A stretch of 64,000 nucleotides of DNA from Sphingobium sp. JS3065 (GTDB lineage Bacteria; Pseudomonadota; Alphaproteobacteria; Sphingomonadales; Sphingomonadaceae): contig NZ_CP102664.1 of the NCBI RefSeq assembly GCF_026427355.1, positions 3,103,501 to 3,167,500 on the forward strand, read 5' to 3'. The notes beneath the pieces were generated by a model. The model made no database searches. It was not told where the DNA came from and saw nothing but the letters and a program-made list of their open reading frames with translations. Positions 9,422 to 50,788 of this stretch are shown here, piece by piece. A program made the translations under genes and the position numbers. Each line of letters begins with the position of its first letter. Position 1 is the first letter of the stretch.

Positions 9422-9511
<90 letters not shown>

Positions 9512-17283: not shown

Positions 17284-17294
17284 TTGGACGGCCG

Positions 17295-28531: not shown

Positions 28532-31500
28532 TTGCAAGAAGCGGAGTTTAAGGCTTGGCTTGCCGAGCGGGGAGCGAATACTGAAAGCGGTCGAAGCACT
28601 CGTGCCCATGCAGTTCGGACCATCGAGAATAACCTGTCTGCGTTAGGCTCTCCTCATTCGGATCTCGCCGACGCCTGGCAGGCTGACAAATTTGTACATT
28701 TACGTCAGCGTCTGAAGGCAATGCAGGCCGACTTTCAAAACGGCGGCAGTGATTTCAAGATACTCATGCCGCAGTCTAAGAGGCCGCTAAATCGATTGGC
28801 TAGCTGGCGCTCCTGGCTGGGCCAGTACGGGCAGTTTTTGGAAGGGGCGGTACTGGGCGATCGGTACGCCGACGCCATTCGACTGCACGTCCTTGAGAAC
28901 TACATTGAGCCGGCACGTGAGCGCGAAGAGGATAGCGTTGAGGTTCTCGTGCGCGACGTCAATGCGGCTCTCGGCCTGAAGGAGGCTTGGCCGAACATCT
29001 GCCAGGCTCTTGCCGGCCGCAAGTTTCGCGAAATGGCTGATGTGAGACTGGCTGAGCGTGTCGGAGCGAATATCAGCCCGGCAACTGTCTTATGTTTTGA
29101 TCTCGCGGCAAATGACGGTGACATCGAAGGGGAACTGCGTCAGCGATACGGCGTCCCGATTGTGGATACCGCTAAGATGCTGGCATTTGGCCTGCCAGAT
29201 GGGCGTCAGCTTGCGTGGGAGCGCACGGTCTCGGTAGCTCAAATTTGGATTGAAGACAGTGTCGATCGAGAGTCTTGCCCGCTTCCTATTCACCGCACGT
29301 ACCTTCCCACACAGGCGCGGCATTCTAATCTACCGCCTCGGCTGAAACATAGGGCGGCAAATGGACATAGGCCGCGACCCGTTTTGATCGTTCGCCCAGC
29401 GGATGCAGTGCAGCTTGTTGAACTGCTCGATTGGTATGAGGATGCCGGCCCCTATGTCGATCGTGACTGGCTCGACGGGTTGCGTTCTGAATTTCTTGAG
29501 CGCCACCCCGGGTTCGTAAGCTTCGAGGACGGCGCCAGTTATGCGTCTAATGAGGGCAGTAAAAGGCGCAATCTTGTACAACATGCGCAAGCTTTGGTAG
29601 GCCAATTCACGGGCGAAACGAAGAATGAGCCATCCTTAGGCGCATCGTTGCTCGACCTGCTCGTCGGCAAAGCCGGGGTGCCATGCGAGCTTCTTGATTG
29701 GCGGGTGATCAATATTGTCCAAGCGCTTCGGACTGACAATCCAGGAGTGGTGGAGCAAGCAGCTGAGGATCTGGCTCAGGTCGGGGACGACGTTGCCGGA
29801 GTCATGGCTTTCGTCGGCGCTACGTGGCCGCTGATGCTGCCTCATGCGCAAGCAAATCCGTATGCCGAAAGCCGGACGATATCGACCATGCTTCGGGCGT
29901 TGATCGCTCCCGAAGGAATGTTTGGCATCCGATCCACCCCCACGGACAACGCATGTTGGATGCTGAGCGGCAGCCCCGCTTTCGGCCCGAATCCATTGAG
30001 CGAAGGTGAGTTGGCCGGCGTGATGCGCCTTGTCCGCACGGTAGAGCGGATCATGCGTGACGAATGGCAGTGGGCGCCTCGCGATCTCTGGGACGTTCAA
30101 GGCTTTGTTTGGGAAACCTGCCAGAAGCGATTACCGGAACCCGAAGCGAAGGTCGGCGAGATCACCGGTGGGACCCCAATCTGGCTTGTGACTTCCCGTG
30201 ATGGGGACGCTGACGGGTTCGCCAGCTTCGTGGAACGTGGCACATGGCATCTGCTCTACGACAGCGACAGCAAGTATAATCATATGGTTCGCGAGATGCA
30301 GGCGGGCGACAGGATCGTCTTGCGAGACTACCTGCCAAACCAGCGAAATGCGCCATTTGAAACCAACGGTAAACCGGTCAGTGCCATGCGGATACGGGCA
30401 ACCGGGATTGTGACGGGCAAAGGGGAAGACGGTCGTCAGGTTCAAGTGGATTGGACCGTCTTGCCCGAGCCGCTGCTCTGGTGGCTCTACACCAACAACG
30501 ACACAATTTGGCGCCTTCGGCCTGAACGCGAGGCCGCACAGAAGCTTGCGGCGTTCATTTTTGAGGGCGAAGCGCAAGATTTCAATTGGTTCTTGAATTC
30601 ACCTTTTTGGCGTGATCGCCTCAACGCATCGCAGGATGACAATATAATGCTCAACCCGACCAATCTCATTCTCTATGGGCCTCCCGGCACCGGTAAGACC
30701 TACTCTACGGCCCGGGAAGCCGTGCGCTTGTGCGTTGGTTCGGCTGACTTCGCGGAAACGGCCGAGGGGAGGGCTGCTCTGATGGCTCGCTATCGGCAGC
30801 TCGAAGCGGAGAAGCGCATTGCGTTCGTCACCTTCCATCAGGCCTACGACTATGAAAATTTCGTGGAAGGTTTGCGGCCTGACGAAGATGCCGAAGAACA
30901 GGGAGCTGGTTTCCGGCTAAAGCCGTGTCCGGGCATTCTACGTGAGATTTGTGCGCTCGCTGAACATGCTCGGAAAAAGGCGGAAGCAGGCGAAACGGGT
31001 AGTGCGATCGATCTTTCCACCTGCCAATTTTGGAAGATGGGCTTGGGTGCCATTCGGCAGGAGGAAGAAGTTTACGAGGCGGCGCTAAAGGACGAATACA
31101 TCGCTTTGGGTTGGGGGAGAGCGGAAGATTGGAGCGATGACCGCTTCTCGACCGTAGAGGCGATCAAGTCCCATTGGTTGTCGCTGTTTCCTGAAAGCCA
31201 AGAGCCCAGCAATTGGACTCAGACCCACCGTTTCCGCAATGATATGGCGATAGGTGATATCGTCATTGTTCCTTTCGGCAATAGCGCGTTTCGAGCCGTG
31301 GGGCAGATCGTAGGCGATTACGAGTTCATCCCTGAAGCCGAAGGTTATTTTGCCCACCGGCGCAAGGTGAAATGGCTCATGACAGCTGATGAGCCGCTGC
31401 CTCTAGACGTTATCATCGACGGCAATTTCACTATGCGCACCGTTTACGAGATACCTCGTAAGCGCATCAACATTCCTGCATTGAGTCGTCTGCTTAAGGC

Positions 31501-32242
31501 CGATAAAGAGCCTGGCGAGTCGCCGATCGCTTCGACCAAGCCCGACGAATTTGTCTTAGTCATCGATGAAATCAATCGGGCGAACATATCAAAGGTATTT
31601 GGAGAGCTCATCACACTCCTAGAGCCGGACAAGCGGCTCGGCATGCCTAACGCTCTGACTGTACGATTGCCGTATTCGAAGGCAGAGTTCGGCGTGCCGG
31701 CGAACCTTCACGTCATTGGCACGATGAACACTGCCGACCGGTCTATAGCATTGCTCGATACTGCGCTTCGTCGCCGCTTTAAATTTCGCGAGATTGCCCC
31801 TGATCCGCAGCAACTCAAGGGTGTAGCTGAAGCGGTGAAACTGCCTCTCGTCCAGATATTAGAGACGATCAACGATCGGATTGAGTATCTGATCGATCGC
31901 GAGCACCGTATCGGACATGCCTTCTTCATGGGCTGCAATATGTCCGACGATGTTGTCGACGTGATGCGCGACAAGATCATTCCACTGCTTCAGGAGTATT
32001 TCTTCGAAGATTGGAGCCGCGTTCGGATGGTGCTTGGCGACGGGTTCATTGGCCAAGGAGTGATCAAGGCTCCACCTGGCATGGAGGGTATTAATCGCGA
32101 GCGTTGGTTTGTTCGAGATTTCTACAGTGCTGAACCGGAAATTTCCCTCTCTGACGCTTTCGCCCGTCTTCTGGGCAAAGGGGCAATTTTGTCAGCGGTC
32201 AACGAGGATGATGCGCCGGACGCGGAGAACGACGTCGCATGA
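28532..32242 (+). CDS. mcrB: McrB-type AAA+ restriction NTPase with two PUA/EVE-like modules
   Basis: The 1236-residue product is the motor of a modification-dependent restriction system. The AAA+ core shows Walker A ILYGPPGTGKTYS near residue 716, Walker B LVIDEINRANISKVF near 1008 and the sensor IGTMNTADRSIALLD near 1060, all typical for McrB. Residues 1-130 are helical. Residues about 547-665 (TPIWLVTSRDGDADGF, then ERGTWHLL) look like an EVE/PUA fold that could read modified bases. A second such fold (CQFWKMGLGAI to IVPFGNSAFRAVGQIVGDYE, about 828-935) is inserted between Walker A and B. The start is TTG 28532 behind GGGGGG; no ATG fits. It overlaps mcrC by four bases. Confidence 0.9.
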   Translation: MQEAEFKAWLAERGANTESGRSTRAHAVRTIENNLSALGSPHSDLADAWQADKFVHLRQRLKAMQADFQNGGSDFKILMPQSKRPLNRLASWRSWLGQYGQFLEGAVLGDRYADAIRLHVLENYIEPAREREEDSVEVLVRDVNAALGLKEAWPNICQALAGRKFREMADVRLAERVGANISPATVLCFDLAANDGDIEGELRQRYGVPIVDTAKMLAFGLPDGRQLAWERTVSVAQIWIEDSVDRESCPLPIHRTYLPTQARHSNLPPRLKHRAANGHRPRPVLIVRPADAVQLVELLDWYEDAGPYVDRDWLDGLRSEFLERHPGFVSFEDGASYASNEGSKRRNLVQHAQALVGQFTGETKNEPSLGASLLDLLVGKAGVPCELLDWRVINIVQALRTDNPGVVEQAAEDLAQVGDDVAGVMAFVGATWPLMLPHAQANPYAESRTISTMLRALIAPEGMFGIRSTPTDNACWMLSGSPAFGPNPLSEGELAGVMRLVRTVERIMRDEWQWAPRDLWDVQGFVWETCQKRLPEPEAKVGEITGGTPIWLVTSRDGDADGFASFVERGTWHLLYDSDSKYNHMVREMQAGDRIVLRDYLPNQRNAPFETNGKPVSAMRIRATGIVTGKGEDGRQVQVDWTVLPEPLLWWLYTNNDTIWRLRPEREAAQKLAAFIFEGEAQDFNWFLNSPFWRDRLNASQDDNIMLNPTNLILYGPPGTGKTYSTAREAVRLCVGSADFAETAEGRAALMARYRQLEAEKRIAFVTFHQAYDYENFVEGLRPDEDAEEQGAGFRLKPCPGILREICALAEHARKKAEAGETGSAIDLSTCQFWKMGLGAIRQEEEVYEAALKDEYIALGWGRAEDWSDDRFSTVEAIKSHWLSLFPESQEPSNWTQTHRFRNDMAIGDIVIVPFGNSAFRAVGQIVGDYEFIPEAEGYFAHRRKVKWLMTADEPLPLDVIIDGNFTMRTVYEIPRKRINIPALSRLLKADKEPGESPIASTKPDEFVLVIDEINRANISKVFGELITLLEPDKRLGMPNALTVRLPYSKAEFGVPANLHVIGTMNTADRSIALLDTALRRRFKFREIAPDPQQLKGVAEAVKLPLVQILETINDRIEYLIDREHRIGHAFFMGCNMSDDVVDVMRDKIIPLLQEYFFEDWSRVRMVLGDGFIGQGVIKAPPGMEGINRERWFVRDFYSAEPEISLSDAFARLLGKGAILSAVNEDDAPDAENDVA

Positions 32243-33570
32243 CGCATCTCCACGTGCCCGAGTGGGGACGAGTAGCAATCGGTCCAGATGGCTTTTCCCT
32301 GGCGCAGGCTGAGGCGCTGCTGGCTGCCGCTCGGGCACATCCGATGGGTGGAGAGGATGGGAGCGCCATCCTGACCGATCATCGTCATCACCTGCGGGCC
32401 AAACAGATGGTGGGCGTCATCGCCGCACCAGGTTGCAGCTTAGAAATCTTGCCGAAAGTCGATCCTGAGGCCGAACTGGGTGATCTCCCGACGGTTCGGT
32501 CCCGCCTGATTTGCTTGCTGGACTTGGCGCTGGGGCTGAACTTGGCGGACGGTGCTCAGGCAGCCTTGGCTCACGGCGCCGAAAACCTGCTCGATATTTT
32601 GATCCGCCACTTTGCGCAGCGGCTGTTAGGCTTAGCTCGCCGAGGCTTGCCTCGCGCTTATCAAGCCCGCGCTGAAGATCTGCCGACACTCCGCGGAAAG
32701 CTCGATATTGTCCGCCAACTGACAGTTCATGTGGGGCGCCCGGATCGGCTCGCCTGCCGCTTTGATGTGCTGTCTAGCGACACACCGCTGATGCAGGTGA
32801 TGAAAGCAGCCGTGGTCTTTCTGTCTCGGTTGGCCCGCGCGCACGACACGCGCCGACTGCTAGAAGAACTGCGCTTCGTTCTGGCAGATGTCGCAGATGT
32901 ACCTATTTCCGCACTTCCCTGGGAGAAGGTCAGGATTGATCGCACCAGTCAGCGGTGGGAAACTGTCTTCGCTTTGGCGAAATTGCTGCTCAGGCGTGAT
33001 TGGCAGGGAACGACTTACGATCATCGATCACACAACGGCATAACGCTTCTCTTTCCAATGAATGACCTTTTCGAAGCAGCGGTCGCTGCCCTGCTACGGC
33101 GGGCTTTGTCAGGAAGCGGCATCAGCGTCGTGGAGCAGGGAGGCCTTCGTCATTGTTTGGGCGAATGGACAAAAGATGAGGATTGTGAGGGCCACGTGTT
33201 CCAAACACGACCTGATATCCTTCTTCGCCGTGGAGGGAAGGACCTCGCCATTATCGATACCAAATGGAAATGTCTTACCCCGGATGCTTCGGTTGCAAAG
33301 AGGGGGGTGGCCCAGGGCGATGTGTACCAGATGATGGCTTATTCTCGTCTCTATCAGTGCGATCGCCTGATGTTACTCTATCCCGCAGTCGCGGGGAACG
33401 GAACGGCTGTCAGCCACCGCTTCGGCATAGCGGGGGGGCGGGAAATGCTGGCGCTGGGAGTAGTCGATTTGACGGCGCAGATGAACCTCGTCCAAAACGA
33501 ATTGAAAAAACTGATTTTCGACTTTCTGCCTCGTGAACTCGAGAGTGATCTGAAGTTGGCTACAGCATGA
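32239..33570 (+). CDS. mcrC: McrC-type nuclease subunit
   Basis: The 443-residue product partners with McrB and carries the cutting site. The N-terminal McrC domain (VIAAPGCSLEILPKV) is followed by the helical YARAEDLPTLRGKLD-like section, which binds McrB. The PD-(D/E)XK site is at the C-terminus: TRPDILLRRGGKDLAIIDTKWK near residue 320-340, with Asp, Asp and Lys in the usual places, then GDVYQMMAYSRLY. The ATG overlaps the mcrB stop (ATGA), so expression is coupled in a fixed ratio. Confidence 0.94.
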   Translation: MTHLHVPEWGRVAIGPDGFSLAQAEALLAAARAHPMGGEDGSAILTDHRHHLRAKQMVGVIAAPGCSLEILPKVDPEAELGDLPTVRSRLICLLDLALGLNLADGAQAALAHGAENLLDILIRHFAQRLLGLARRGLPRAYQARAEDLPTLRGKLDIVRQLTVHVGRPDRLACRFDVLSSDTPLMQVMKAAVVFLSRLARAHDTRRLLEELRFVLADVADVPISALPWEKVRIDRTSQRWETVFALAKLLLRRDWQGTTYDHRSHNGITLLFPMNDLFEAAVAALLRRALSGSGISVVEQGGLRHCLGEWTKDEDCEGHVFQTRPDILLRRGGKDLAIIDTKWKCLTPDASVAKRGVAQGDVYQMMAYSRLYQCDRLMLLYPAVAGNGTAVSHRFGIAGGREMLALGVVDLTAQMNLVQNELKKLIFDFLPRELESDLKLATA

Positions 33571-34124
33571 TCGGTCTACGTTCGGTGCGATGCAACGTCC
33601 CTGCGCCGATCTGATCAGCCCTTCCTCGGCGGCAGGGCCCAGCACTCTTGCATCGTACTGCGTAGTGGAAAGGCTGCCCGGCGGGACAAGAACTAAAATT
33701 TGCCGATGCGTAAGTAAATCAACTTTTCGGCAGTAGCTGTCTGTGCAACAGATCCGATGTTGGTTCTGTTGGCAGTCGAGAAGGGGGCATTCTGATTGAT
33801 AGCTGCATCTCGTCAAAGCACCCGCTGGTTTGCGCCATTTACCCAAGCGCACGGAATTCGAGGCGAATGATGGTGCGACCAATTTTGTCGCTTGATCGTG
33901 CCACGCTGTAGCGCATGTCAAGAATCCATCAATTCAGCGCCAGCTGCCGTCAACCGTGGCCCCCGTGCCCTGTATATGGGCGGAGCGTAATCTCGCTCAG
34001 ATCTTCGTGATCGCTGGCGGTTCGGTAGCGGCACGGAGTTTGTGGCGCTTACAACCTAGCAGCCATCGGTGAAATCTCGCATCTGATGAATAATTGGCCT
34101 CAGAAACTCTTGAGTTGAAATTGC
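33571..34124. other. 554-base non-coding stretch upstream of the double-GHKL operon
   Basis: I see no gene here on either strand. It should hold the promoter of the 34125-44034 operon. A 16-base motif GCGACCAATTTTGTCG (33875-33890), with GCGAC/GTCGC arms when the next base is included, occurs again at 61675-61690 upstream of the dGTPase gene. Confidence 0.5.
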
Positions 34125-37100
34125 ATGACCGCACTGAAGACCACGCCGCAGGCGACCATACAGCAGATCCAGACCTTGCTCTCGGAAAGTTACGGATCGG
34201 GCTTCACGATCTTCAAGGAACTAATTCAGAACGCTGATGATGTAGGCGCTACTCGGCTTCTCTTGGCCGGGCACGACGGCTTCCCTGATGCTGACAACGT
34301 GCTGTTGCGTGCGCCTGGGATCTTTGTCGCCAATGATGGTCCGGTGAGTTCGAGCAACTGGGAGGGATTGCAACTGGCTGCCGGCGGCAGTAAGGGTGGT
34401 GACGGCCAGGCGGTCGGCCGCTTCGGTTTAGGCCAGAAGGCGCTTTACCACCTGTGCGATGCATATCCCGTGTTCGCCCGGATCGATGGCGGTCCTAAGC
34501 CGACCACGATGATCCTCAATCCGTATGAGGAAATCGCTGAGGCCGATCACGCCCGCGCATGGAAGTCGCTTTCGGCGAAGGATGAAATGCTGTTGGCTGA
34601 TTGGGCCGATGGTCAGGGGATGGCGATGGGGCTCGTTCTCTACATCCCGTTGCGCACTGATACGCTGCGGCCCAGTTCTGACTCCCGGATTAGCCTGACC
34701 AGAGCGCAATGGAATCCTCGCGACGCATTGAAGGATATTGTAGATGGCGAGCAGCTCCACGCCACAATAAGTTGCCTGCGTCACCTCGTGCGGATCGACA
34801 TCGAATGCCCGGGCGAAATTTCCTGGCGCGCCGAAGTTCAGCCGGGGGGCACGCGCCTCTCCGGCCCTGGCGATGACGCCCAGCGTCAGATGGAGGCAGC
34901 GTTTGGGGGGCGCTTCACTGTAAACGGGAAAGCGTGCGAGGTACATGGCGCCCAGCGCAGCCTCACCGATGGAACGGCTGTGACGCTGAGGCAAGAAGGT
35001 GACTGGCCCTCTGCTTGGACGTTGACCGGGCTGGACAAGGCGAAAGCCACGCCACATGGAGCGTCGATCATTTGCCGGCACCCGGTAGGTCCCGGCAAGT
35101 CCGCGCGACTACGCATATGGCAGGGTGTCTATCTGCCGCTCGGTGACCCGGCCAAGGACCGCAGTGTCGTACTTGGCGATCCCGCGCTGCTAGGAAATGA
35201 AAATGTCGACATCGTCGTCCACGGCGACTTCTTTGTGTCGAGCAATCGCGCGAGTATTCTTGTTAACGACGGTAACAGGGGGCAGGACGCGATCAAGCTC
35301 CGCTGGAACGAAGCCTTGCAGGCCGAAGCTTCGCTCCCGTGCGTGCTCGACGCTGTGGCTCAGGCGGTCCTCGGCATCAAAGCCAACAACGACCGCTATG
35401 AGCTGATTCGCGCTCTTGGTGAAAGTCGTTGGTGGCGGGAGAGGGCGAGAGCGATTTGCGGAGGTCGCGCGCTGGTGCGGAGACTCGATGGGAGCGATAG
35501 CAACTGGCGCATCGAGAAGGCGACGCAACTGCGCCCAATGCCTTCGTCCGAGGCAACTCGCCCGCGCCGCCTCACGGAGGCGTGGAAGGGCTTTCTTGAT
35601 TGGTGCACAGCAAATGAGTTCGTGCTCGCGCAAGGCGTCACGCTCGGCGAAGCGCGCCCTGCGTGGGAGGATCGTGAGCTGGCCGAGTTGGTAGCCGGCT
35701 TCGCCCCAGCATCTCTATCGAGCAAGGATGCCGCCAATACATTGGTCGAAATTCTCGATTACAATGCCAGCACGGGCGGCGGCGAGATTGGTCCGTTGGC
35801 CCGGGCCGCAATGGCGAATGCGTTTCGCGCTGCCATGCGCAATGGCACGAAGTTGGCGCCGATGGCCCAGCTCAGGCGACTGACATTGCATCTGCCGCAC
35901 GATCAGGTGCTCGTCCTCCCCAAGTCGGTGACCGATCCGGAGTTGCTCGCTCGCCTTGCAGAACTTCCAGACACATTGTGCATTCGCGCAGAATGGATAA
36001 GCGAGGAGCAGGCGAAGCAAACGCGTAGGCTTGCGCGTGACGAAGCAGTGTCGTTGCTGGCTGTGCTTGAATCGGTGACCCAGCGGCCGAGCCGCATCTT
36101 CGATCAGGCGCTCGCACTCATCGGACTTGTTCTGCAGAACGGCCTGACGCTTGCCGAACTGGCGCGCGACAGCAAGGCAGCATCGCTGAAGGTCATCCCC
36201 GTTGTGCGGGTTGATGATCGAGCAGACATCATGCTCTCCCCCGCGGAAGTCCTCGACCTCATGCGCGAGAAGCTGCTGTTCCACCATGGCCCGCAGTCGC
36301 AGCTTGAAAAGCTTGCCAGCGCGATTGTTGAGCCGGTGATCTACCACTTGCGGCAGAATATCGCGCTCCCCCCGCCGCCGGGCATGTCGTTGGCTTCGTC
36401 GAACACGGTATCCGACAAGGTCGCGGTGCTGGGAAAAGTTCTGCAATTCGGCCCGATTTCAGCGCGGGTCGAACTGTTCAAGGAATTGCGCGAACACATG
36501 CCGGCACCGCTGATGCGGCGGCTGATAACGGGCGAACCGGGCCTACGTGATCAGGTCACGTTGGCGCGGCTTGTCGGCTTGCCTGTGGCGCTGGGATCTC
36601 TCGTCCATAAATTGATGGCGGATGATGTCTCAATCCGTCTGCTTGACCCGGCCATCGCCGACAAGCTCGGCCACGAGGAGGCGCGCAAGACCGACATTGA
36701 GGATCTCGATCTGGCCTGGCTCGGTGAACAGCTGGTGCGCCGGCGCAGCTTCGTCGAGCCATTTAGCGAAAATCAGGCTGAAACTTTACTTACGTCGGGC
36801 CTCTCGAAAGAAGTCCTAATGCAATTGGCGTTGCACCGGGCGATGAATGAGGAGGGACTGCACCGTGCGGACACCCTGCTTCGAGGTGGGCTCAATGCCG
36901 TGCCCGTGACCATGCGAAGGCTCGTGCGGATTTTGGACCCTTGGCCTGATCCGCGCGCCTCTGCCGTGCAAAATGCCCTCATAGTCGGATGGAGTCCGCA
37001 GCGCCAGGTTAGGCTCGCGCTAGACAGTGCCGAACCGCATCGGTTCTGCTCGGAGATAGCCGAGGTGCTGGGCAGTATCGCGTCACTCGAGGATTCGATG

Positions 37101-40100
37101 GATGCGGATCTGCGTGATCGGGCTTGGTTGGCGGTGGATGGGCGCGGCCGTGCGCCGCGCGATGTGCTCGACCTGCCGACTTGCGCTGCCGATGCGTGGA
37201 CCCAGGTGATGGCTGCACAGACCCCGGTCCTCCGCGAGCAATTGTCCCCCGACCTGCTTTCGGCGCTTGATCGCCATCGCCTCGTCGACGATCGAGCAAC
37301 GGCTTTCCGCCGGGTGCTGCGCGACGCGGCCGAAAGCCGCCTGGCGGGGTTGATCGTGGATACGTTGAACTGGCGGGCGGATCTGACAAAGCTTGCGCAC
37401 GCGCGCTGCGACCTGGCCGAAGGCGCTTGGCCGATCGTTGCTAGTACGCTCCGCAACTTTCCGGATGAGGAGGCGCTACGAGCGGTCATGGCCGGCATCC
37501 GCTTTGCCGCCCCCGATCTCGATGCCGTCGTCGACCAACTCAATGCGCTGGCCGGAATCGCCGGGCGCGATGGTCAGGTCGGTGAGGCCGCCCGCAGGTT
37601 GTGGCGCGCCGGTTTTGAGAAGCATGCCCCAGACCTGCGTACCGAAACCGATTTTCTGCCCGCCGATGTGCTGGTGGAAAGCGAGGCCGGTCGCTTTGCC
37701 CGTGCCGACGAACTGGCCCTCTCTGCCTCAGGTGTGGAACCGCGCGATCTGTTAGCGCGGCAATGGCGGTTCGATGTGCCTGCCGATCATTCGCCGGCCG
37801 CATTTGGCAAAGAGGTAGCGTGCCGGCCGATCGGGGACATGGTTGAGGCGCTGTTCAAGCCGTTCCAGCCCTTCCACGAACTGCACACTGCGGTGCTAAT
37901 GGTTCTGGCCATGTTGGGGCGCGAAAAGGCCATTCGCCGGGTCGCTAGCCAATTCATGGGCAATCCCGGTTTCGACGACATATGTGCAGACCTTGATGAC
38001 CGGTCGCGCCGACAACTGGGCTTGTACGATCCGCTGGCGGAGCACATGGCGCGCCTGCGCCTGATGGTAGTTCCGGTGCAGGACGGCCAGGCACTGACGC
38101 TGTCAGCCGCGGGCACGACCATGCTGGCTGCTGCCGAGCGGGAAGGCGCGCTGCTCTACGGCTGTTTGAAGACGGGCGATGGGGTCCATAGTTGGCAGCT
38201 GACAATGTCGCCGATCGAACCCCGGGATCTAACGCACGCCACAAATCTGCTGCGCGATGCGGTGAAAAAGCTCGTCGAACCGATCGGTATGCGGATGCAA
38301 AACCAGTCTAGCACGGTGCTGGCCCAGTTCGATGGCTACCTCGCCTCCGACCAAGCAACTCTTGACGAACTAATCGCCGACATCCGCGACGGCTTGGCCG
38401 AGCGGATCAAGAAGCTGACTCGCGGAACTTATCTCAAATCGGCATTGAGCCGCTACGACGACGACCGCAAACAGGGCCGCCACGAACAGGACGATACCGC
38501 TGCGCGGCAGCGCGCCAAGGACAATCTGTGGGCAGCGATCTCTCGCCCGGAGGCAGGCAAGGAATTGCTCGCGTCGGTCCGAGAGAAGATGTTGCGGCGC
38601 AACTACGCGCCATCGCGGACGCTATTCGAGCTCTTCCAGAACGCGGTCGATGCGGCCCGTCAGAAAGGCCAGCCTTCCGACGTTCGCGTCGAGGCTGAAC
38701 GCGACGAAACGGGCGCGATTTGCCACCTTCGCTTCATCCACTGGGGGCGGCCGGTCAACGTGCCGGGCGGCCCGCTGACGCCTGCCCGCTATGCGCGCGA
38801 TCTCGATAATATGCTCGATCTCGACTCATCTGAGAAGGAAGCCGATCACGGCAAGCACGGCCTTGGCTTCAAGACGACCCACATGTTGAGCGACAATGTG
38901 GGTGTCGCTAGCGGGCGGCTGCGCTTTCGCATCGAAGGTGGATTGATTCCTAAAAATTGGGAAGATGGCCGTGCTCTTCAGCAGTTGCATAACACCAAAG
39001 ACGCGCAGGCGACGATCATCGATATGCCGATTTCCCCCGGTTTGGAGCATGCTGCAGCCGATGCGTGGAACTGCTTCGTTGAGGTCGCACCGTTCCTGCC
39101 CGTTACCGCGCCAGAAATCGGCGAAATCGTGATCAAGGACGGCGGCGAAACCCGTAGTGGCGAAGCCGCCGTCACTGAGGTCGCTCCAGGTATCGCTGCG
39201 GTTCAGTATGGCCACGATCAGCGCTCTTTGCGCCTTGATCTTGGCCGCCAGCATTATCTCTACATCAAGCTCATCGCGGGTACGCCAGTGCCGTTCGCCA
39301 AAGGGTGGAGCCGGCTGTGGAACCTTGCTCCGCTGGATGGCGAGACGGTGAACGCCGCGTGGTTGATTGACGGCCGGTTTGAGATGGACCAGGGGCGACG
39401 CGGGCTCCATGGTCAGGGAGAAGACAAACGCCGCGCTATGCGCGCGCTTGGGGCCCCGCTTGGTGATCGGCTAGTCGAATTTTTTCAGGGCTGGGACGAG
39501 ATAGCGCCTATAGCTGGGCTGGCTGTCGATGGTCGCGACGATTTCTTCGCGCTCTTAATCGACCGCATGATCGATGACACGCATGACCAACTTGCCCTTG
39601 AACTGCATGGGCGAGTTGGGCAGTCTCTCCAAGTTGGCGCATTGCGCGGACTGGCTGCGCTCGTCGATGCATGTCCGGTGGTACCACTGTCCGGAGGCGG
39701 TCTGGTTTGCGCTGATGAGGTTGAGGGCGTCTATCGAAATACCCTAGCAGATCCCGCGACATTGCAGTGCGTTAGAGCTTGGGGCGATGAACTCGGTTTT
39801 CACAACCACGCGATAAACGCGGGGTGGGCCGCAAATCTAGAGGCACTCGGCTTCGACAAGGTGGCCGGGATCGATCTTGGCGTACTCGCAGAGCGGCTGT
39901 TCTCCGGTGGCGGTGTTGATCCGGTTCGTGCTGCGGCGTTCGGCACGGTGTTCAATTCGAGTGAACGCCAGAATTGGCATCCTGAGGAGCGCCAGCGGGC
40001 GGAACGCGCGTTGCGCGATGTTCTACTGCTGCCTGAGGACGGCAGCTATGTGCGTTCTAACCAGTTATTGTTCCCGCAAGACACACGCGAGACTCAGGAG

Positions 40101-41360
40101 GGCGAGACTGAGCGACAGCGCGCCGCCTTTGCGCCCGCCGCGGGCAGGCTTAACTCTGACTATACGGGCAATGCGGTGGAATTTGCTCACCTCGTGCGCG
40201 CGCTGGCGGGCTATTCTCAGACCATCGTACGCAAATATCTCGCAACCGCTAATCAGGACTCAGCTCGCCTTTTTGCGGCCCTCACCTATTTGGCCGATCG
40301 CCCCAGCGAGATTGGTGGGATCGAATGGCTCTCCACCGTCGCCGACCTTCAATCTTTGAAAGAATATCGTCAGCTTAGCCGCCAGCAGCAGCTTTCGATC
40401 GAGGCCCGACTCGTCAACAACAGCGAAAATCCTTCTTCTCCCCAATCGGCGTTCGATTTCGAGGATGATGTCGTACGCAGCGCCGAGGAAATCCTTCAAG
40501 ACGTGGCCTCCTGGTGGGAGGAAAACCGCTTTGCCCTAGTTGCGCGGCATGATCGCCTCACATACGGCGAGCTCTGCGACCCGGCGGACCTCATCGATAT
40601 GGATGACGTGGCCTGGTTCACGCTGCTCTCGCTCGGTTCGTTTCAGACGTTGGGCCGGATCACGCCTCAGCAGTCGCGTGGCTTCATTGAGCGCTGTGTA
40701 AATGAAGGGTGGTGGCGCGATCTCGCGACCATCGACGAAAGTGATCGCGAATTGAAGCCGTATGTCCAGCGATTGCTCGACTGGACAGAGATCGGCGCGG
40801 CAGACGACTATCTCATGTGGCGACGTTGCCTTGGCGATATGTGCATGATCGCGAGGCATCTTGAAACCTATCGTGAGATTTTTCTCAATCTACCACAGAT
40901 GGTGCGCCAGCATGACGACAAACTGGCGCTCCGTGATTTGTTGCGTCCGTCCAGCAGCCACATCGTCGCCCGGATGGGGCTAGATGCCGCGCCGATCGCC
41001 CGGTCCCTCGGTATGGGGGCGAATTGGATCGTGCGTGAGCTGGCAAGGCGTGGCGTCTATGACGAGGATGACGCGGAAATCGTCCAACCCTTCGCGTGGA
41101 GCGCACGGCTCCGAATTCGCCATTTTGCCAGCGCGATCGGCCTCGGCGATTTCGAATCTGGCATTGATGAGGGGCGGGCCTTGCATGACGCCGTGCTTGA
41201 GGAAGTGGGGGTTGACATGCCCTTCGGGACAGACGGCGACTTGCCGCTAGAACTGCTCAATACCCGTGAACCCGGCCGCGGATGGTTGCCCGCCCGTACC
41301 CAAATTCTCAAGGGAACCTGGATCGCCCCTGATCTCGATGAGGTGACGGAAAATGCTTGA
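34125..41360 (+). CDS. Giant sacsin-like protein with two GHKL/HSP90-type ATPase domains
   Basis: The 2411-residue product begins with a sacsin/HSP90-type ATP site: FKELIQNADDVGATRLLL (N box, residues 28-45), FVANDGP (G1) and GRFGLGQKALYHLCD (G2 near 100). A second, separate GHKL site lies near 1496-1585: LFELFQNAVDAARQK, then LRFIHWGRP and GKHGLGFKTTHML. Some 1400 residues between them and the last 800 residues show no motif I know. Two ATP-gated clamp domains in one chain suggest a conformational switch that senses DNA or protein and controls a partner. It overlaps the SNF2 helicase gene by eight bases, so the two form a unit. No nuclease domain is obvious. The surrounding genes point to anti-phage defence; this is inference. 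Confidence 0.85.
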   Translation: MTALKTTPQATIQQIQTLLSESYGSGFTIFKELIQNADDVGATRLLLAGHDGFPDADNVLLRAPGIFVANDGPVSSSNWEGLQLAAGGSKGGDGQAVGRFGLGQKALYHLCDAYPVFARIDGGPKPTTMILNPYEEIAEADHARAWKSLSAKDEMLLADWADGQGMAMGLVLYIPLRTDTLRPSSDSRISLTRAQWNPRDALKDIVDGEQLHATISCLRHLVRIDIECPGEISWRAEVQPGGTRLSGPGDDAQRQMEAAFGGRFTVNGKACEVHGAQRSLTDGTAVTLRQEGDWPSAWTLTGLDKAKATPHGASIICRHPVGPGKSARLRIWQGVYLPLGDPAKDRSVVLGDPALLGNENVDIVVHGDFFVSSNRASILVNDGNRGQDAIKLRWNEALQAEASLPCVLDAVAQAVLGIKANNDRYELIRALGESRWWRERARAICGGRALVRRLDGSDSNWRIEKATQLRPMPSSEATRPRRLTEAWKGFLDWCTANEFVLAQGVTLGEARPAWEDRELAELVAGFAPASLSSKDAANTLVEILDYNASTGGGEIGPLARAAMANAFRAAMRNGTKLAPMAQLRRLTLHLPHDQVLVLPKSVTDPELLARLAELPDTLCIRAEWISEEQAKQTRRLARDEAVSLLAVLESVTQRPSRIFDQALALIGLVLQNGLTLAELARDSKAASLKVIPVVRVDDRADIMLSPAEVLDLMREKLLFHHGPQSQLEKLASAIVEPVIYHLRQNIALPPPPGMSLASSNTVSDKVAVLGKVLQFGPISARVELFKELREHMPAPLMRRLITGEPGLRDQVTLARLVGLPVALGSLVHKLMADDVSIRLLDPAIADKLGHEEARKTDIEDLDLAWLGEQLVRRRSFVEPFSENQAETLLTSGLSKEVLMQLALHRAMNEEGLHRADTLLRGGLNAVPVTMRRLVRILDPWPDPRASAVQNALIVGWSPQRQVRLALDSAEPHRFCSEIAEVLGSIASLEDSMDADLRDRAWLAVDGRGRAPRDVLDLPTCAADAWTQVMAAQTPVLREQLSPDLLSALDRHRLVDDRATAFRRVLRDAAESRLAGLIVDTLNWRADLTKLAHARCDLAEGAWPIVASTLRNFPDEEALRAVMAGIRFAAPDLDAVVDQLNALAGIAGRDGQVGEAARRLWRAGFEKHAPDLRTETDFLPADVLVESEAGRFARADELALSASGVEPRDLLARQWRFDVPADHSPAAFGKEVACRPIGDMVEALFKPFQPFHELHTAVLMVLAMLGREKAIRRVASQFMGNPGFDDICADLDDRSRRQLGLYDPLAEHMARLRLMVVPVQDGQALTLSAAGTTMLAAAEREGALLYGCLKTGDGVHSWQLTMSPIEPRDLTHATNLLRDAVKKLVEPIGMRMQNQSSTVLAQFDGYLASDQATLDELIADIRDGLAERIKKLTRGTYLKSALSRYDDDRKQGRHEQDDTAARQRAKDNLWAAISRPEAGKELLASVREKMLRRNYAPSRTLFELFQNAVDAARQKGQPSDVRVEAERDETGAICHLRFIHWGRPVNVPGGPLTPARYARDLDNMLDLDSSEKEADHGKHGLGFKTTHMLSDNVGVASGRLRFRIEGGLIPKNWEDGRALQQLHNTKDAQATIIDMPISPGLEHAAADAWNCFVEVAPFLPVTAPEIGEIVIKDGGETRSGEAAVTEVAPGIAAVQYGHDQRSLRLDLGRQHYLYIKLIAGTPVPFAKGWSRLWNLAPLDGETVNAAWLIDGRFEMDQGRRGLHGQGEDKRRAMRALGAPLGDRLVEFFQGWDEIAPIAGLAVDGRDDFFALLIDRMIDDTHDQLALELHGRVGQSLQVGALRGLAALVDACPVVPLSGGGLVCADEVEGVYRNTLADPATLQCVRAWGDELGFHNHAINAGWAANLEALGFDKVAGIDLGVLAERLFSGGGVDPVRAAAFGTVFNSSERQNWHPEERQRAERALRDVLLLPEDGSYVRSNQLLFPQDTRETQEGETERQRAAFAPAAGRLNSDYTGNAVEFAHLVRALAGYSQTIVRKYLATANQDSARLFAALTYLADRPSEIGGIEWLSTVADLQSLKEYRQLSRQQQLSIEARLVNNSENPSSPQSAFDFEDDVVRSAEEILQDVASWWEENRFALVARHDRLTYGELCDPADLIDMDDVAWFTLLSLGSFQTLGRITPQQSRGFIERCVNEGWWRDLATIDESDRELKPYVQRLLDWTEIGAADDYLMWRRCLGDMCMIARHLETYREIFLNLPQMVRQHDDKLALRDLLRPSSSHIVARMGLDAAPIARSLGMGANWIVRELARRGVYDEDDAEIVQPFAWSARLRIRHFASAIGLGDFESGIDEGRALHDAVLEEVGVDMPFGTDGDLPLELLNTREPGRGWLPARTQILKGTWIAPDLDEVTENA

Positions 41361-44034
41361 TGCCGCCGATGCGCTAGCGCCCAATACCCCCGTTTCGCAC
41401 CCGATTCACGGTACTGGACAAGTCATTGCCGATACCGGTGCCACGGTAGTGGTCCGTTTCGGCGCGGAGATCCAACAGGTCCTGCGTTCCGAACTCGCTC
41501 TTGCCCGCTCGCTCGAACTTGCGTTGGGCGCCGGCCAGCTCGATGATAGCGCCGATGGCCTGCTGCGTGCCAGCGCGCTCGCGATCCGTTCGGTCAACGA
41601 CCAGTGGGGTGTGTTCTCGCGCTCGCGCGTGCAGCTACTTCCACACCAGCTCTGGGTCTGTCACAAGGTCAACCGCCAGTGGCCGTTCCGCTGGTTGGTC
41701 GCCGACGATGTGGGCCTCGGCAAGACAATCGAGGCGGGCCTGGTCCTCATGCCACTGGTGGCACGCGCGCAGGTGCGCCGCTTACTGATACTCGCGCCCG
41801 CCAAATTGGTGCCGCAGTGGCAGGCGCGACTGCGCCAGATGTTCGATCTCCGCCTGCAGATGTACGACCGTGAGGTCGACAAACCCACTGCCGATTTCTG
41901 GGGAACGGCGCAGATGGTCGTTGCCTCAGTTCATACACTTAGGCGCGAGGTCGCTGAGGGTCGCGCTCAGGCCAGTCGATTCCTGGATGCCGAGCCGTGG
42001 GACGCGGTGGTTGTCGATGAAGCGCATCACCTTCATGCCGACGAGAGAACAGGGGAGACGCTTTCGCTTGAGTTGTTGAAGGAGATGGAGAGGCGACAGA
42101 AAATCCGGTCGCTGCTGCTGTTCACCGGGACGCCTCACCGCGGGAAGGATCATGGTTTCTTCTCTCTGCTGAGCCTGCTTGATGCCGAACGGTTCGGGCC
42201 GGACAAAGACGTCGATGAACAGCTCGCCGCGTTGCCCGACTTCATGATCCGCAACAACAAGGCTACGGTCACCGATCTTAAGGGCAAACGCCTGTTCACG
42301 CCGGTCACAGTCGAGACGCGCGATTATGCCTTCTCCGGAGCCGAGGCCGCGTTCTACGAAACACTAAGCGCCTTCATCATCGACGGCCGCGCCTATGCTT
42401 CTACACTCGATGGAAGAGCGCAGTCTGCCAGGATGCTGCTCCTGATTGCACTGCAGAAGCTCGCCGCATCCTCGATTGCGGCTATCCGTAGCGCGCTGAT
42501 CAAGCGCCGAGCAAAACTGGCGGCCGTGGCCGAGAATGCGAGAGTGGCACTCAGCATTCCCGAGGAGGCCGAAACGCTCGACGAGCAGGCGGTCCAGGTA
42601 GAGAACACCTTGGCGCAGATGCTGGTAGAGCTGATGGACGGCGAGGTCGCGCGTCTCGATGAACTGCTGGAACTCGCCGAGCCGATCGTGCGCGAGCAGA
42701 AGATCGAGCGACTTGTCGGCCTGATCGACAAGGATTTGCCGGAAAATGAACCGGTCCTGCTGTTCACTGAATATAAGGCGACGCAGGCGATGGTCGTCGA
42801 TGCGCTTCACGCTCGCTTCGGGCATGGATGCTGCGCCTTCATCAACGGTGACGGACGGCTCGACGACCTTTCGCTCGCGAATGGCAGCCGCGGCCCGCGT
42901 AGTTGGACTCGGGAGGCAGCGGCCGACGCATTCAACGGTGGGAAGGTGCGCTTCCTCGTGTCGACGGAGGCTGCAGGGGAAGGCATCGACCTTCAGGAAC
43001 GCTGCGCCACGCTGGTTCATGTGGACATGCCATGGAACCCGATGCGGCTGCACCAGCGGGTTGGCCGTCTGTCGCGTTATGGTCAGAAGCGGCCAGTCGA
43101 AGTTTTCATCCTGCGAAATCCAGACACCGTCGAGGCGCGGATCTGGGATCTTCTCAATGCCAAGCTGGAGCGCATACAGGCCGCGCTCGACGTCGCGATG
43201 GATGAGCGCGAGGACATCAGCCAGCTGGTTGTAGGCATGAGCGGTCCGGCGACGATCGAAGCGATCTTTGCCGATGGGCAGACGCGCGGGAGAGAAGGGC
43301 TGACTCAATGGTTCGACCAGCGTTCCGCCACGATCGGTGGGCGCGACGTCGTAGAGAGCGTTCGGAATATGCTTGGCAGCGTCAGCCGCTTCGATTTCGC
43401 GCAAGTCGGGCGTAATCTGCCCCAAGTTGATCTGCCAGATCTCGAACGCTTTTTGAAACTTGAGCTGGAACGTCAGGGGCGCCGCGCCATGAGCCGCGCT
43501 GACGGATTAGAGGTGAACTCGCCCGATGCCTGGAGCAAGTCCGACTACGCTATCAGTAAGAAGTACTCGGGCCTCGTGTTCGATCGCAACGCCCCGATCG
43601 ACTCAAAGCAGGCTCCGACCAGATTGGTAGGCGTCGGCCATGCACTGTTCGACCGCGCTCTGCTGGAAAGTGAGAGGCGCGACGTGTTTCTCGCAACGTG
43701 CAACAGGCTTGATTCTCCGCTGCTTGTTGCCACGATTAGCGATGAAGTCACTGGCCAAGGCCAAACGGTCAGCCGTGTTGTGATCGGGGCGTGGCAGGAT
43801 CCTGAGGGCGAGGTGCACATCCTTCGCGACTGGGAACTGCTACAGCGGTTGAACCGTCTTGGCCGATCGGATGCTGCGACAACCTCCCTGCAAAACGGAG
43901 GCGCGGCTCTGGCAACGCTCACCAAGGCCTTGCTGGCGCACGCCTATGAGGCAGCGCCAGGCATCGCAGAAGGCATGACCCGTCCGACCGTAAGAGGCGA
44001 AGTGTTGCTTGTCCCTGAGGAGATGGCAGTTTGA
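41353..44034 (+). CDS. SNF2/RapA-like helicase paired with the double-GHKL protein
   Basis: The 893-residue product starts with a small SH3/Tudor-like domain (HPIHGTGQVIADTGATVVVR), as in RapA and DrmD-type proteins. The SF2 core follows: Walker A VADDVGLGKTIEAGLVL near 119, DEAH in VVVDEAHHLHAD near 221, FTGTPHRG, and STEAAGEGIDLQ with HQRVGRLSRYGQ near 571. The last 250 residues are unique. It should translocate on duplex DNA. Its ATG overlaps the end of the giant gene by eight bases, which implies translational coupling. It resembles DISARM DrmD, but none of DrmA, DrmB, DrmC or the DISARM methylase is next to it. Confidence 0.9.
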   Translation: MLDAADALAPNTPVSHPIHGTGQVIADTGATVVVRFGAEIQQVLRSELALARSLELALGAGQLDDSADGLLRASALAIRSVNDQWGVFSRSRVQLLPHQLWVCHKVNRQWPFRWLVADDVGLGKTIEAGLVLMPLVARAQVRRLLILAPAKLVPQWQARLRQMFDLRLQMYDREVDKPTADFWGTAQMVVASVHTLRREVAEGRAQASRFLDAEPWDAVVVDEAHHLHADERTGETLSLELLKEMERRQKIRSLLLFTGTPHRGKDHGFFSLLSLLDAERFGPDKDVDEQLAALPDFMIRNNKATVTDLKGKRLFTPVTVETRDYAFSGAEAAFYETLSAFIIDGRAYASTLDGRAQSARMLLLIALQKLAASSIAAIRSALIKRRAKLAAVAENARVALSIPEEAETLDEQAVQVENTLAQMLVELMDGEVARLDELLELAEPIVREQKIERLVGLIDKDLPENEPVLLFTEYKATQAMVVDALHARFGHGCCAFINGDGRLDDLSLANGSRGPRSWTREAAADAFNGGKVRFLVSTEAAGEGIDLQERCATLVHVDMPWNPMRLHQRVGRLSRYGQKRPVEVFILRNPDTVEARIWDLLNAKLERIQAALDVAMDEREDISQLVVGMSGPATIEAIFADGQTRGREGLTQWFDQRSATIGGRDVVESVRNMLGSVSRFDFAQVGRNLPQVDLPDLERFLKLELERQGRRAMSRADGLEVNSPDAWSKSDYAISKKYSGLVFDRNAPIDSKQAPTRLVGVGHALFDRALLESERRDVFLATCNRLDSPLLVATISDEVTGQGQTVSRVVIGAWQDPEGEVHILRDWELLQRLNRLGRSDAATTSLQNGGAALATLTKALLAHAYEAAPGIAEGMTRPTVRGEVLLVPEEMAV

Positions 44035-44224
44035 GCGAACGCACCTTTTCTCAACCGCTCCGTGAGTGCGCACGTGTCGGAAAGTGCCTCCTGTGAGAAC
44101 GAAAAGAGCCAGCCAGCAGAATCGCAGCCTTCCCGACCGGAGATTTCATCAACGGCCACTCCGTTTGGCCAGCGGGCATCTTGAGTCCGAACATCAGAGC
44201 ATGTCCGGATGCAAAATCAGCGGG

Positions 44225-47200
44225 CTATCCACTGATCACCGATAGTTCGCTACGACCACGGGCGACGGGCGTCACCTCAATCTTCACGGGGATCCGTTCT
44301 TTGATCTCTTCGACATGGCTGATGACGCCTACTCGGCGCCCGGTCGCGTGAAGATGCTCCAAGACAGACAGGGCTTGGCCGAGGCTGGCGCCGTCCAGTG
44401 CGCCAAATCCTTCATCGATGAACAGGCTTTCTATCTTGAGGCCGCGGCCAGTCGACATTTCGGCAAGGCCGAGTGCCAAGGCAAGACTAATCAGGAAACG
44501 CTCGCCGCCTGAAAGATTGTGCACCCCACGGATTTCGCCAGCCATGTCATGGTCGATCACTTGGATAAGCATGTCGCCGCTGGGCGCGCGCTGGAGTTCA
44601 TAACGGGGCTTGAGATCCGCCAGCCTCGAATTTGCGTGCGCTAGCAGTCGGTCAAGCGTTAGCCCTTGGGCGAAGCGCCGGAACCGAGCACCCGTCGCAT
44701 CGCCGATGAGTTCATCAAGGGCGAGCCACACCCGCGCCGCTGCCCGCTCGCGTTCCAGGTCGGCACGCAGCTTCGTAGTCTGCGTCCGTACCTCATCATC
44801 CCGGCGGAGGACAAACTGAACATCTTGGAACGCCTTCTGGGCCGCCTCGTCCGCGCGCTTGGCTTCGCCGACCGCTTGAGCAAGGGCGTCGCCGGAGAGG
44901 GAAGGAGGGTCAGTCTGATCGTGGCGGGTCAGATCCTGCTGCCGTTGAATCAGTAGGGCAGCGGCATGCTCCGCAGCCTTGTCGATGTTGGCAAGAGCCT
45001 CAACCTCCTGATCGATCGCCTCCTGTCCCGCTTGAGCTGCGTCGGCGACGACGTCTTCTTCGATCGCCAACTCAGTAAGGCGTGCGTGAAATCGACCTTG
45101 GCGATCCAGATGGTCCTTGATCCTGCGCTCTGCTTCTTGGTCCGCGGACTCTTTGTGAGCGGTTGCGGCCGCCTGCTGCTCTCGCGCCTTGCTGGCCTCT
45201 ACTTGGGCAACTTCCAAAGCGCGGCGGCTCTGCGATAGGGCCGCTTCGTTGCGGGCGACGACGATATCCACCGTGTCGCCGTCAAGCAGGCTTTTCCGAG
45301 TGTCTGTTTGCCGAAGCTGATCTTCCTCCCACCCCTTCGCTTGAGACTCGATTTCGTCGAACCGGGCGGCGGCTGTGGCGGTCTCTGTACGCGCGTCAGC
45401 AACGGATTTCTCCAGCCCCGGAATTGCGGCGAGAAGCCGTGAATGTTCCGCAGAGTGGGCACGCCAAGCCTTGGCAGATTCATCGAGCCAGGCTGCTGGG
45501 TCAGGCAACTGTCGCCAGTCTGCGCTGCCCCCGACCCTTGCGTCGATCGATCGCGCGAGCCGATCTCGTGTTTCTTTAGCGTGCGATCGGCGCTCCGCTA
45601 TGCCGCTCGATTGCTGTTCGATATCGCGCACTGTCTGAGCGGCGAGACTGGAGGCTGCGCGGCATTTCTCCCACTCGTTTCGAGCCTTTTCATCGGCGAC
45701 CTGCGTGATCGTGACTGCGGTCCTCGCCTCCGTCATCGAAGCGCGCTGCTTGTCCAGCGCGGCGTGTTCGCTTTGCAGAGTAGCTTCGAAGTCCGGCCCG
45801 GCCGGATCAAGGCCCACCGAGCCGCATTTTTCTGACAGGATGGCAAAGGCAGATTGGGCATTATTGCTGGCCGCCGCCAATGCGGCGGTCTGACTTTCTA
45901 TTTCGTGGTCCAGTCGGAGGATTGACTGGTCAGTAGCCTGAATCCCTGTGGCCAGAACGGCCTCTTCAGCGGTCTTTGAAGACAGTGAGGCGTCCAGCTG
46001 GGCGATGCGCTCCCGCTGCTCCCGAAGCTGTAGCCCCAAGAGCGAGTCGATTGCACTCAATGCGTGTTCGGTCGCCCCGCAAACCGGGCAGGCCTGTCCA
46101 TCCTCAAGCGTGGCGCGAAGTTGCATTGCCGCTTCGCCCGAGGCCGTTTCGGCTAACTCGCTCGCACGCCGTGCCTCCTGCAATTGCGCTCGCAGAATAG
46201 GAAGGGAGGAGCTGACCTGGGAATGCCGGACGACCAGATCTTTGCGTTCGGCCTTAGCGTCATCGAGATTGCTGCGTAGACGGACCAGGAGATCACGGGA
46301 TGTTTCTACCTGAGCTTCTTGATGCTTCCAGTCTACCAGGAGAGGGGAAAGACCTCCCAGGCGATCCCGTTTTTCAATGATCGCTGAGAAGGCGGCATCG
46401 GATGGTGCTGAAGCCTTAGCCTCGTCCAAAATGTTGCGAGCCCATGTGGCAGCTGCGGCGGTTCCCTCTTCCGCTGCCTTCGCGGCTTCCCATGTGGCGT
46501 TGGCCTCTATTTTGGAGGCCTCTGCTTCCTTTGCGCTCTCTGAAAGCTCGGACAGCTTTATATCGACGGCTGCGATCTCGACGAGCTCTGCAGAGAGTTC
46601 CTGCTGCTGTGCAGCCAACGTGGCAAGCTCGGCGTTCGCCGCAAGCCACGACGCCTGAGCGTCACGAGTTTCTGTAGCCTCAGCCAACAAGGTGTTAGCG
46701 GCCTGCTCAAGCTGCCGACATCTGGACAGGGCTTGCGCGCGCGCAGCGCGAACGTCTGCTATGCCATCAAGCGATGCGCTTGTTTCGGAAAGCTTCCGGT
46801 CGATCGCACGGGCTTCTTCGATCTCAGAAGATTGAGCGGCGACCCGTTCAGTTTCGAGCCGGAGCTGAGCTGCTGCGTGCTTTTCTTCAGCTGCCGTCTG
46901 CGTCGCGCGATCGTTCGCTTGCTCCAATTCACTTTGCCGCACTACAACAGTTTGGCGCGCTTCCTGCGCCAGGATGGCCGCATCCTGGACGGCGGTCCAG
47001 TCTCCTGCGAGGGCGAACGCGGCTTTACGCAGGCGCAGGGCCTCATGCCGAGGGGCGGCTTCTTCGCGGGCTGCGCTTGCGGTCGACGCGGCTAGCTCAC
47101 ATTCTGCCACCTTGTTGGCCAAGGCCGCACGATCGGTCTCCCAGCGAACAGCGTTGGAGAGTTCTCCAAGGGTAGCGGCGGTTCGATCCGCGACCGCCTT

Positions 47201-49164: not shown

Positions 49165-49235
49165 GGGTTCAGTTTCGCAAAATTGGCGACAGAAATGGAC
49201 GTAACTCGATCGCGGAAGATCTGGCCGGTGCTGCC

Positions 49236-50723: not shown

Positions 50724-50788
50724 GCTGCCACCCTCATGATGAGGTTGAGGAGGGGGCTGAAAAATCTTGGAGAGCTGATCGTCATGAT

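Follow-up and report, generated by a model that had tools for sequence, protein, structure and literature searches.

The window, by which we mean the whole stretch of 64,000 nucleotides analysed, carries on its forward strand a gene for a giant protein of 2411 residues, followed by a gene for an SNF2/RapA-like helicase of 893 residues. The reading frames overlap by 8 nt. A preliminary description of this DNA had called them a two-gene operon with McrBC genes on one side and SbcCD and WYL genes on the other. Both the reading frames and the neighbours are as it stated, with McrBC upstream and the SbcCD-like and WYL genes downstream. The features are given below; for the giant, conservation refers to an alignment of 115 rows (the window, 57 loci and 57 database proteins, near-duplicates included), and for the helicase to 72 aligned helicases.

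28532..33570, forward: McrB-like (1236 aa) and McrC-like (443 aa) type IV restriction genes
28656..44225, no strand: segment replaced by an Azaca operon in G818, a genome of the same genus (most of McrB, McrC, giant, helicase)
34125..41360, forward: giant protein, 2411 aa, two GHKL-transducer modules
34125..35414, forward: module 1, residues 1-430, sacsin/MORC-type GHKL plus transducer
34218..34241, forward: site 1 N-box, E32..N36..D39 (each in 113 of 115 rows, 2 gaps)
34332..34340, forward: site 1 G1 box, N70-D71-G72 (N70 in 113 of 115, 2 gaps)
34416..34439, forward: site 1 G2 box GRFGLGQK, residues 98-105 (G98, G101, G103 in 113 of 115, 2 gaps)
35247..35249, forward: R375, invariant basic residue of the transducer (115 of 115), candidate catalytic Arg
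35415..38387, forward: inter-module region, residues 431-1421, mainly helical in models
38388..39671, forward: module 2, residues about 1422-1849, GHKL plus transducer
38628..38651, forward: site 2 N-box, E1502..N1506..D1509 (115 of 115)
38739..38747, forward: site 2 G1 box, H1539-W1540-G1541 (H1539 in 113, W1540 in 109, G1541 in 115, of 115)
38850..38873, forward: site 2 G2 box GKHGLGFK, residues 1576-1583 (G1576, G1579, G1581, K1583 in 115 of 115)
39396..39398, forward: R1758, invariant basic residue of the module 2 transducer (115 of 115), candidate catalytic Arg
39672..41360, forward: C-terminal region, residues 1850-2411, helical in models, invariant Trp
41353..44034, forward: SNF2/RapA-like helicase, 893 aa, 8-nt overlap with the giant
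41704..41727, forward: helicase Walker A, D118-T125 (DDVGLGKT; each at least 95% in 72)
42016..42027, forward: helicase DEAH box, residues 222-225 (each at least 95% in 72)
43054..43077, forward: helicase motif VI, residues 568-575 (7 of 8 residues at least 95% in 72)

The giant protein and its helicase

The giant is no chance reading frame, because 50 of its 78 database matches span 99-100% of its length, at 29-96% identity. The genome that contains the window measures 5.1 Mb, and its giant is 96% identical to a protein named from Sphingobium sp. YBL2. Animal sacsins among the database matches cover only 4-7% of it, namely the GHKL stretch.

The proposal that one chain holds two HSP90/GHKL ATP sites is borne out by profile matches, modelled fold and module homology alike. 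Pfam SACS matches module 1 only (E 5.7e-17; 62.8 bits, cut-off 32.8), site 2 gives only a sub-threshold Pfam match to HATPase_c_2 (15.9 bits, cut-off 27.4), NCBIfam P_loop_sacsin lies above its cut-off in two stretches, and the PADLOC TmtA models match both sites. In the predicted structures each module adopts the GHKL (Bergerat) fold followed by a transducer domain. The two modules are homologous over 308 columns in a single profile-profile comparison (Prob 98.3, E 1.4e-13), a method that detected no repeats outside them. The fold-search matches listed for the giant are all taken up by the GHKL modules, and these structural relatives include the DNA-handling proteins GyrB, TopoVI and MORC. 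Sacsin SR1 comes closest to module 1 in sequence as well as in structure, and module 2 and the transducers resemble GyrB, TopoVI and MORC as well as Hsp90.

The N-box and G2 motifs attributed to the sites are confirmed: the N-box Glu and Asn together with the GxxGxG of the G2 box occur in 113 of 115 rows at site 1, the other two being gaps, and in all rows at site 2. The canonical G1-box Asp, in contrast, is replaced at both sites, by Asn (N70) at site 1 and by His (H1539) at site 2. We take this position, from the Hsp90 motifs, to be that of the Asp contacting adenine; with this Asp replaced, ATP turnover is not assured at either site. Human sacsin likewise has Asn there in an alignment. Five Trp residues of the C-terminal region (W2068, W2130, W2131, W2164 and W2196) are present in 115 of 115 rows. 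Constraint is strong on both ATPase sites of the giant and on the SNF2 motifs of the helicase.

The giant is divided at a common point in three genera of cyanobacteria: Trichormus (L137, 7935-18704), Tychonema (L078) and Pseudanabaena (L080). The first protein ends at profile position 802 of 2468 in all three and the second starts at 794-811; site 1 lies on the first, site 2 on the second, and the helicase gene comes next. The modules can therefore work as separate chains, and a clamp confined to a single chain is not required.

The helicase had been described as RapA/DrmD-like. The RapA half of this label stands, RapA being its closest relative by sequence among PDB chains (E 2e-31), with a score on the NCBIfam RapA model (166 bits) below the cut-off of 576. 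The DrmD half derives from the PADLOC family PDLC02634, named DrmD, which matches residues 13-835 with 778 bits, but other DISARM genes do not accompany it, and the NCBIfam DrmD equivalog gives 271 bits against a cut-off of 610. The sole other matches to PDLC02634 at E 1e-60 in the 398 genomes of a phylum sample score about 260. The family therefore seems to describe the clade of the pair's helicase and not the DrmD of DISARM, and automatic annotation with it may call false DISARM genes.

Co-inheritance and spread of the pair

A scan of genome contigs with the giant as a single protein found no relative; an alignment scan gave 172, of which the best 80 were studied. Motifs of the giant itself, and not the helicase, served to select these loci. 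A helicase gene lies beside the giant in 72 of the 80, which is 72 of the 75 loci with room, as five contigs end too soon. The gap is 20 nt or less, overlaps included, in 65 of the 72 (gaps and overlaps are approximate, the reading frames coming from a greedy longest-ORF script), and the two genes share a strand in 71, the exception being L072, where the helicase is inverted. At the three loci with room and no helicase (L028, L031 and L040) the match to the giant profile stops at positions 2338, 2056 and 1780 of 2468. On the Haematobacter plasmid pOT1-5 (L138) the match likewise runs to 2056, there is no helicase, and transporter genes come next. All four helicase-less giants lack the C-terminal end, and the common stop at 2056 suggests that L031 and L138 share a truncated form.

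The two proteins also travel together across genomes. Among 397 Sphingomonadaceae genomes, our own included, nine have matches to the giant (seven in one piece, one in two pieces, one a fragment), and the same eight with an intact or two-piece giant have a helicase scoring at least 1300 bits, the next score being 204. Each of 32 pair-holding genomes has one helicase above 740 bits, with the next best at 282. Distances between giants and between helicases correlate (r 0.918, 57 pairs), a value reached in none of 2000 permutations. Supported clades of the giant recur in the helicase tree in 26 of 45 cases and are absent in 19, and 39 supported split pairs are in conflict; because of these absent clades and conflicts, we regard the association as tight, not strictly congruent. 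A search for a conserved third core gene found none: after giant and helicase, no neighbour cluster is found in more than 9 of 90 loci, some of them duplicates.

The pair is rare and widely scattered. It occurs in one of the 398 genomes of the phylum sample, which is our own, and in 4 of the 61 genomes of a genus sample, one with the giant in two pieces 1.4 kb apart. By record title, holders include alpha- and gammaproteobacteria, deltaproteobacterial MAGs, cyanobacteria, Vicinamibacteria and Bryobacterales (which we take to be Acidobacteriota), Aporhodopirellula (presumably Planctomycetota), and Anaerolineae and SAR202 (presumably Chloroflexota). Deinococcus plasmids carry it as well; seven plasmid records have matches, of which five were examined (H1, H2, H3, H4 and H6; H5 and H7 were left out). 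Supported tree neighbours join L042 (Novosphingobium) with L015 and L016 (Rhizobiales), L011 (Bradyrhizobium) with L022 (a Qipengyuania MAG), and L075 (an Actinomycetota MAG) with L079 (Planctomycetota), although such order- and phylum-crossing neighbours may include MAG binning errors. No giant was matched in 50,697 phage records; viral contigs gave one full-length match and one fragment.

Signs of decay are seen in other genomes. They comprise a two-piece giant in another genome of the genus (G825 C1:203407-211866), a fragment of the giant (G246 C32:949-1623) and a C-terminal fragment of the helicase (G290 C1:1478092-1478532).

Genes around the pair

The flanks of the pair are rich in defence genes. 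At E 1e-15, 175 PADLOC families are matched by 80 flank proteins from 20 loci, against one by 80 control proteins; the flank figure counts families, not proteins, and is inflated by SNF2 cross-hits. The proteins scanned were 80 and 80 of the 120 and 120 chosen, from 20 of the 80 loci, and the control regions were picked by hand from the contigs that carry the pair, at a distance of about 50-105 kb for 9 of the 20 and farther for the others. Annotated neighbours include HsdR, an Eco57I-type methylase, a WYL regulator, McrBC, BrxL, a PglZ-domain protein, a PLD-SNF2 protein and a type III-like restriction enzyme. McrBC-like genes recur near the pair and are not obligatory; a McrC-like gene lies within 10 kb in only 6 of the 80 loci besides the window, and we reject the pair as a fixed part of type IV McrBC restriction.

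Two genomes of the same genus, G817 and G810, carry the cassette collinearly at 91-95% nucleotide identity, with a giant 96% identical. In G818 a 6.5-kb insert stands in place of window positions 28656-44225, between flanks of 91.6% and 92.7% identity, and encodes ZacA, ZacB and ZacC (253, 310 and 697 bits, over nearly the whole length of each model). Azaca is presented, in the available text of two sources, as a defence system of unknown mechanism (PMC12926258, PMC10482375). This natural replacement is the strongest single fact for a defence setting. Since McrBC was swapped out together with the pair, the cassette in that lineage may be one compound unit. The neighbourhood search proposed for the pair returned the helicase in 72 of 75 loci with room, defence-rich flanks and one exchange for Azaca, and so did not give the refuting picture of homologues mainly outside defence loci and lacking the helicase. 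The giant and its SNF2/RapA-like helicase are almost obligate partners that are inherited jointly, move horizontally and sit in defence-rich regions.

The preliminary description saw no nuclease site in either protein, and no nuclease or DNA-binding domain was found in giant or helicase with the HMM libraries. Some loci, however, have a candidate beside the pair. The gene cluster c3, of about 1100 aa and with RNase_H_2 and SF1-helicase domains in its representative L021, lies near the pair in 9 of 80 loci and overlaps the start of the giant in 6, by 1-4 nt in L021, L038, L039, L043 and L046 and by 112 nt (a longest-ORF call) in L037. In L015, L016 and L042 the order is c3-McrB-McrC-giant-helicase, McrC overlapping the giant's reading frame, and the Haematobacter plasmid has a gene annotated as a TM0106 family RecB-like putative nuclease upstream of the giant. 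c3 is a possible third component, a nuclease may act in trans at the six overlap loci, and an upstream nuclease-type gene may be the missing nuclease in some versions of the system. A divergent WYL gene stands alongside at several of the c3-overlap loci (among L021, L037, L038, L039, L043 and L046).

Other parts of the window were also inspected. The likely left edge of an integrated island is at 9422-10987, where a tRNA-Ser (cga) precedes an integrase carrying Arm-DNA-bind_3 and Phage_int_M domains; a search of the own genome by exact 23-nt match found no repeat of the tRNA 3' end. The restriction-like cluster at 11260-20297 (HKD and Snf2-like helicase, DUF4391 protein, type III methylase, type III restriction enzyme) is absent or mostly different in 20-kb stretches of G810 and G817, and is possibly a second exchange slot. 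G818, G817 and G810 all retain a ParA-like ATPase and a MobA/VirD2-type relaxase (24798-28346) next to the exchanged cassette, and the island may be mobilisable. Positions 44225-51829, convergent to the pair, are a candidate for another defence cluster: they hold SbcC-like and SbcD-like genes, whose scores fall short of the NCBIfam equivalog cut-offs, together with a DUF2779/Cas4-like protein and a WYL regulator. In G817 a 2.6-kb insertion (L148 8951-11589) with two reading frames of 490 and 287 aa, which we presume to be IS21-like, interrupts the SbcC-like gene at the equivalent of about 45692-45705. At 51958-53442 an ADP-ribosylglycohydrolase domain is fused to a DSP-PTPase-like domain.

Interpretation and comparison with known systems

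We consider it highly likely that the pair serves defence of some kind, and it is very probably a bacterial defence system as yet unnamed. The SNF2 motor would engage and track incoming double-stranded DNA and would load or activate the giant. When ATP drives the two GHKL modules shut, in a single chain or across two chains, they could form a clamp like those of gyrase, MORC or Hsp90, which would trap the DNA or a complex on it and so stop that DNA from being replicated, transcribed or packaged. Where a nuclease or restriction system is linked to the pair, as the RNase_H_2/SF1 protein or McrBC is in some genomes, it may deal with the invader in trans. A two-gene module against mobile DNA, most likely phages, with the DNA clamp included, is a statement to which we give an even chance as a whole. 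The earlier suggestion of a sensor-and-switch that tracks DNA stays plausible as a candidate. In its strictest form, a nuclease-free machine would hold both clamp halves in one polypeptide, be loaded on invading DNA by its dedicated SNF2 motor and act as a topological trap that does not cut, with the cyanobacterial proteins as a two-chain form; we put this forward tentatively, as possible and on balance doubtful.

The kinships of the two proteins point in two directions. The SNF2 partner and the GyrB-, TopoVI- and MORC-like folds favour action on DNA, whereas kinship to sacsin, Hsp90 and RapA favours action on protein. Sacsin, to which module 1 is closest, is linked to chaperones, so the substrate could be a protein. 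The giant might then sense or disassemble a phage protein complex by sacsin/Hsp90-like remodelling, without any clamp, while the SNF2 ATPase removes proteins from DNA, in the way that RapA works on RNA polymerase. The closeness of module 1 to SR1, that of the helicase to RapA and the lack of nuclease and DNA-binding matches in both proteins all speak for such remodelling; with a DNA-type motor as partner, with module 2 and the transducers matching GyrB, TopoVI and MORC no less than Hsp90, and with neither the DnaJ nor the HEPN domain of sacsin in the giant, we hold it to be rather unlikely. Cleavage in trans, with the pair as the scanning or licensing half and McrC, the RNase_H_2/SF1 protein or another neighbour as nuclease, is less probable still. 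It would account for the overlaps of c3 and McrC with the giant and for the joint exchange of McrBC and pair in G818, and MORC-type systems use nucleases according to the available part of PMC2292703. Yet c3 (9 of 80 loci) and McrC (6 of 80) are infrequent, no neighbour family is obligatory, and the Deinococcus plasmid L140 has no restriction gene annotated within 15 kb; another such plasmid, L136, has an HNH-motif protein and a CHAT-domain protein nearby.

That the pair is no defence system at all, and instead a mobile DNA-repair or other housekeeping module sitting in islands by chance, appears very improbable. SNF2 and GHKL proteins also serve repair, and in the window SbcCD-like genes lie downstream of the pair; loci L001-L090, however, contain nothing that matches this SbcC or SbcD at E 1e-10, although G810 and G817 share the stretch. 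The patchy distribution with fragments and split copies, the flank enrichment in PADLOC families and the replacement by Azaca also speak against a housekeeping role. Least probable of all is a DISARM variant, with the helicase as DrmD and the giant as an accessory. Apart from the PDLC02634 match, it could draw on plasmid C of Trichormus variabilis, where a DISARM locus adjoins the pair. This locus, however, has its own annotated drmD, drmA, DUF1998 gene and drmC; on the profile built from the pair's helicases that drmD reaches 131 bits, where the helicase of the pair reaches 1335. DrmB and DrmC are absent among the PADLOC matches listed for 20 window proteins, for two of them the best 25, the DrmA matches fall on SNF2 helicases, and a type III methylase lies 14 kb from the pair in another cluster. 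With the helicase below the NCBIfam DrmD cut-off, a separate drmD in the DISARM locus on the Trichormus plasmid, and DrmB and DrmC missing from the matches listed for the window, we reject DISARM membership.

If the reading of the pair as a clamping defence module is correct, a widely scattered, unnamed two-gene system would be added to the catalogue, and the helicase that PADLOC labels DrmD would be accounted for. Giant tandem Hsp90/GHKL proteins, human sacsin among them, would gain a bacterial model, and eukaryotic MORC-type silencing a testable link to bacterial immunity. The pair raises directly the question of whether clamping without cleavage can stop invading DNA.

As the preliminary description had expected, neither PADLOC 2023 nor NCBIfam (June 2026) holds a named system for the pair; in the latter, no equivalog is above its cut-off for either protein, and only the generic sacsin domain is. 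A limited literature search found no published description, which supports absence from print weakly. Tiamat, a single-gene system to which we take the gene name TmtA to belong, resembles the giant in having a GHKL ATPase in a large defence protein; its models, 1063-1655 residues long, match only the GHKL sites over about 40-115 residues, and we reject membership. The SR1 Hsp90-like domain of sacsin (Pfam PF25794) is like module 1 in sequence, fold and G1-box Asn, and sacsin is likewise a giant multi-module chain; the giant differs in being bacterial, in its pairing with an SNF2 helicase and in having no Pfam match to DnaJ or HEPN at E 0.1. RapA, the RNA polymerase-associated SNF2 ATPase, is the closest solved relative of the helicase, and differs in gene context. 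DISARM DrmD is similarly SNF2-like, but coexists with the pair as a separate gene on one plasmid. The GHKL-type Shedu protein VcSduA, as far as the available text of PMC12137116 describes it, also has a GHKL ATPase domain in an antiphage protein; unlike the giant, which has no such match, it is fused to a PD-(D/E)xK nuclease (DUF4263).

A further comparison is with the MORC/paraMORC GHKL-S5 ATPases, which, in the part of PMC2292703 available, are encoded beside SF-II helicases (SWI2/SNF2 included) in restriction-like operons. The S5 motif GhXhhpXXRhl given there is found in 0 of 115 rows at each module, with our own residue classes for h and p; a looser motif, G-x-[FYLWM]-5-R, fits 111 and 85 of 115 at the two modules. 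The pair shares the combination of a GHKL plus S5 ATPase with an SF-II helicase, and differs from the systems in that part of the source in carrying two modules in one chain and no obligatory nuclease or methylase neighbour. Since GHKL-S5 ATPases beside SF-II helicases are described there, its kind is already known; a tandem-GHKL giant with its own helicase and without a nuclease is absent from the libraries compared and from the literature found.
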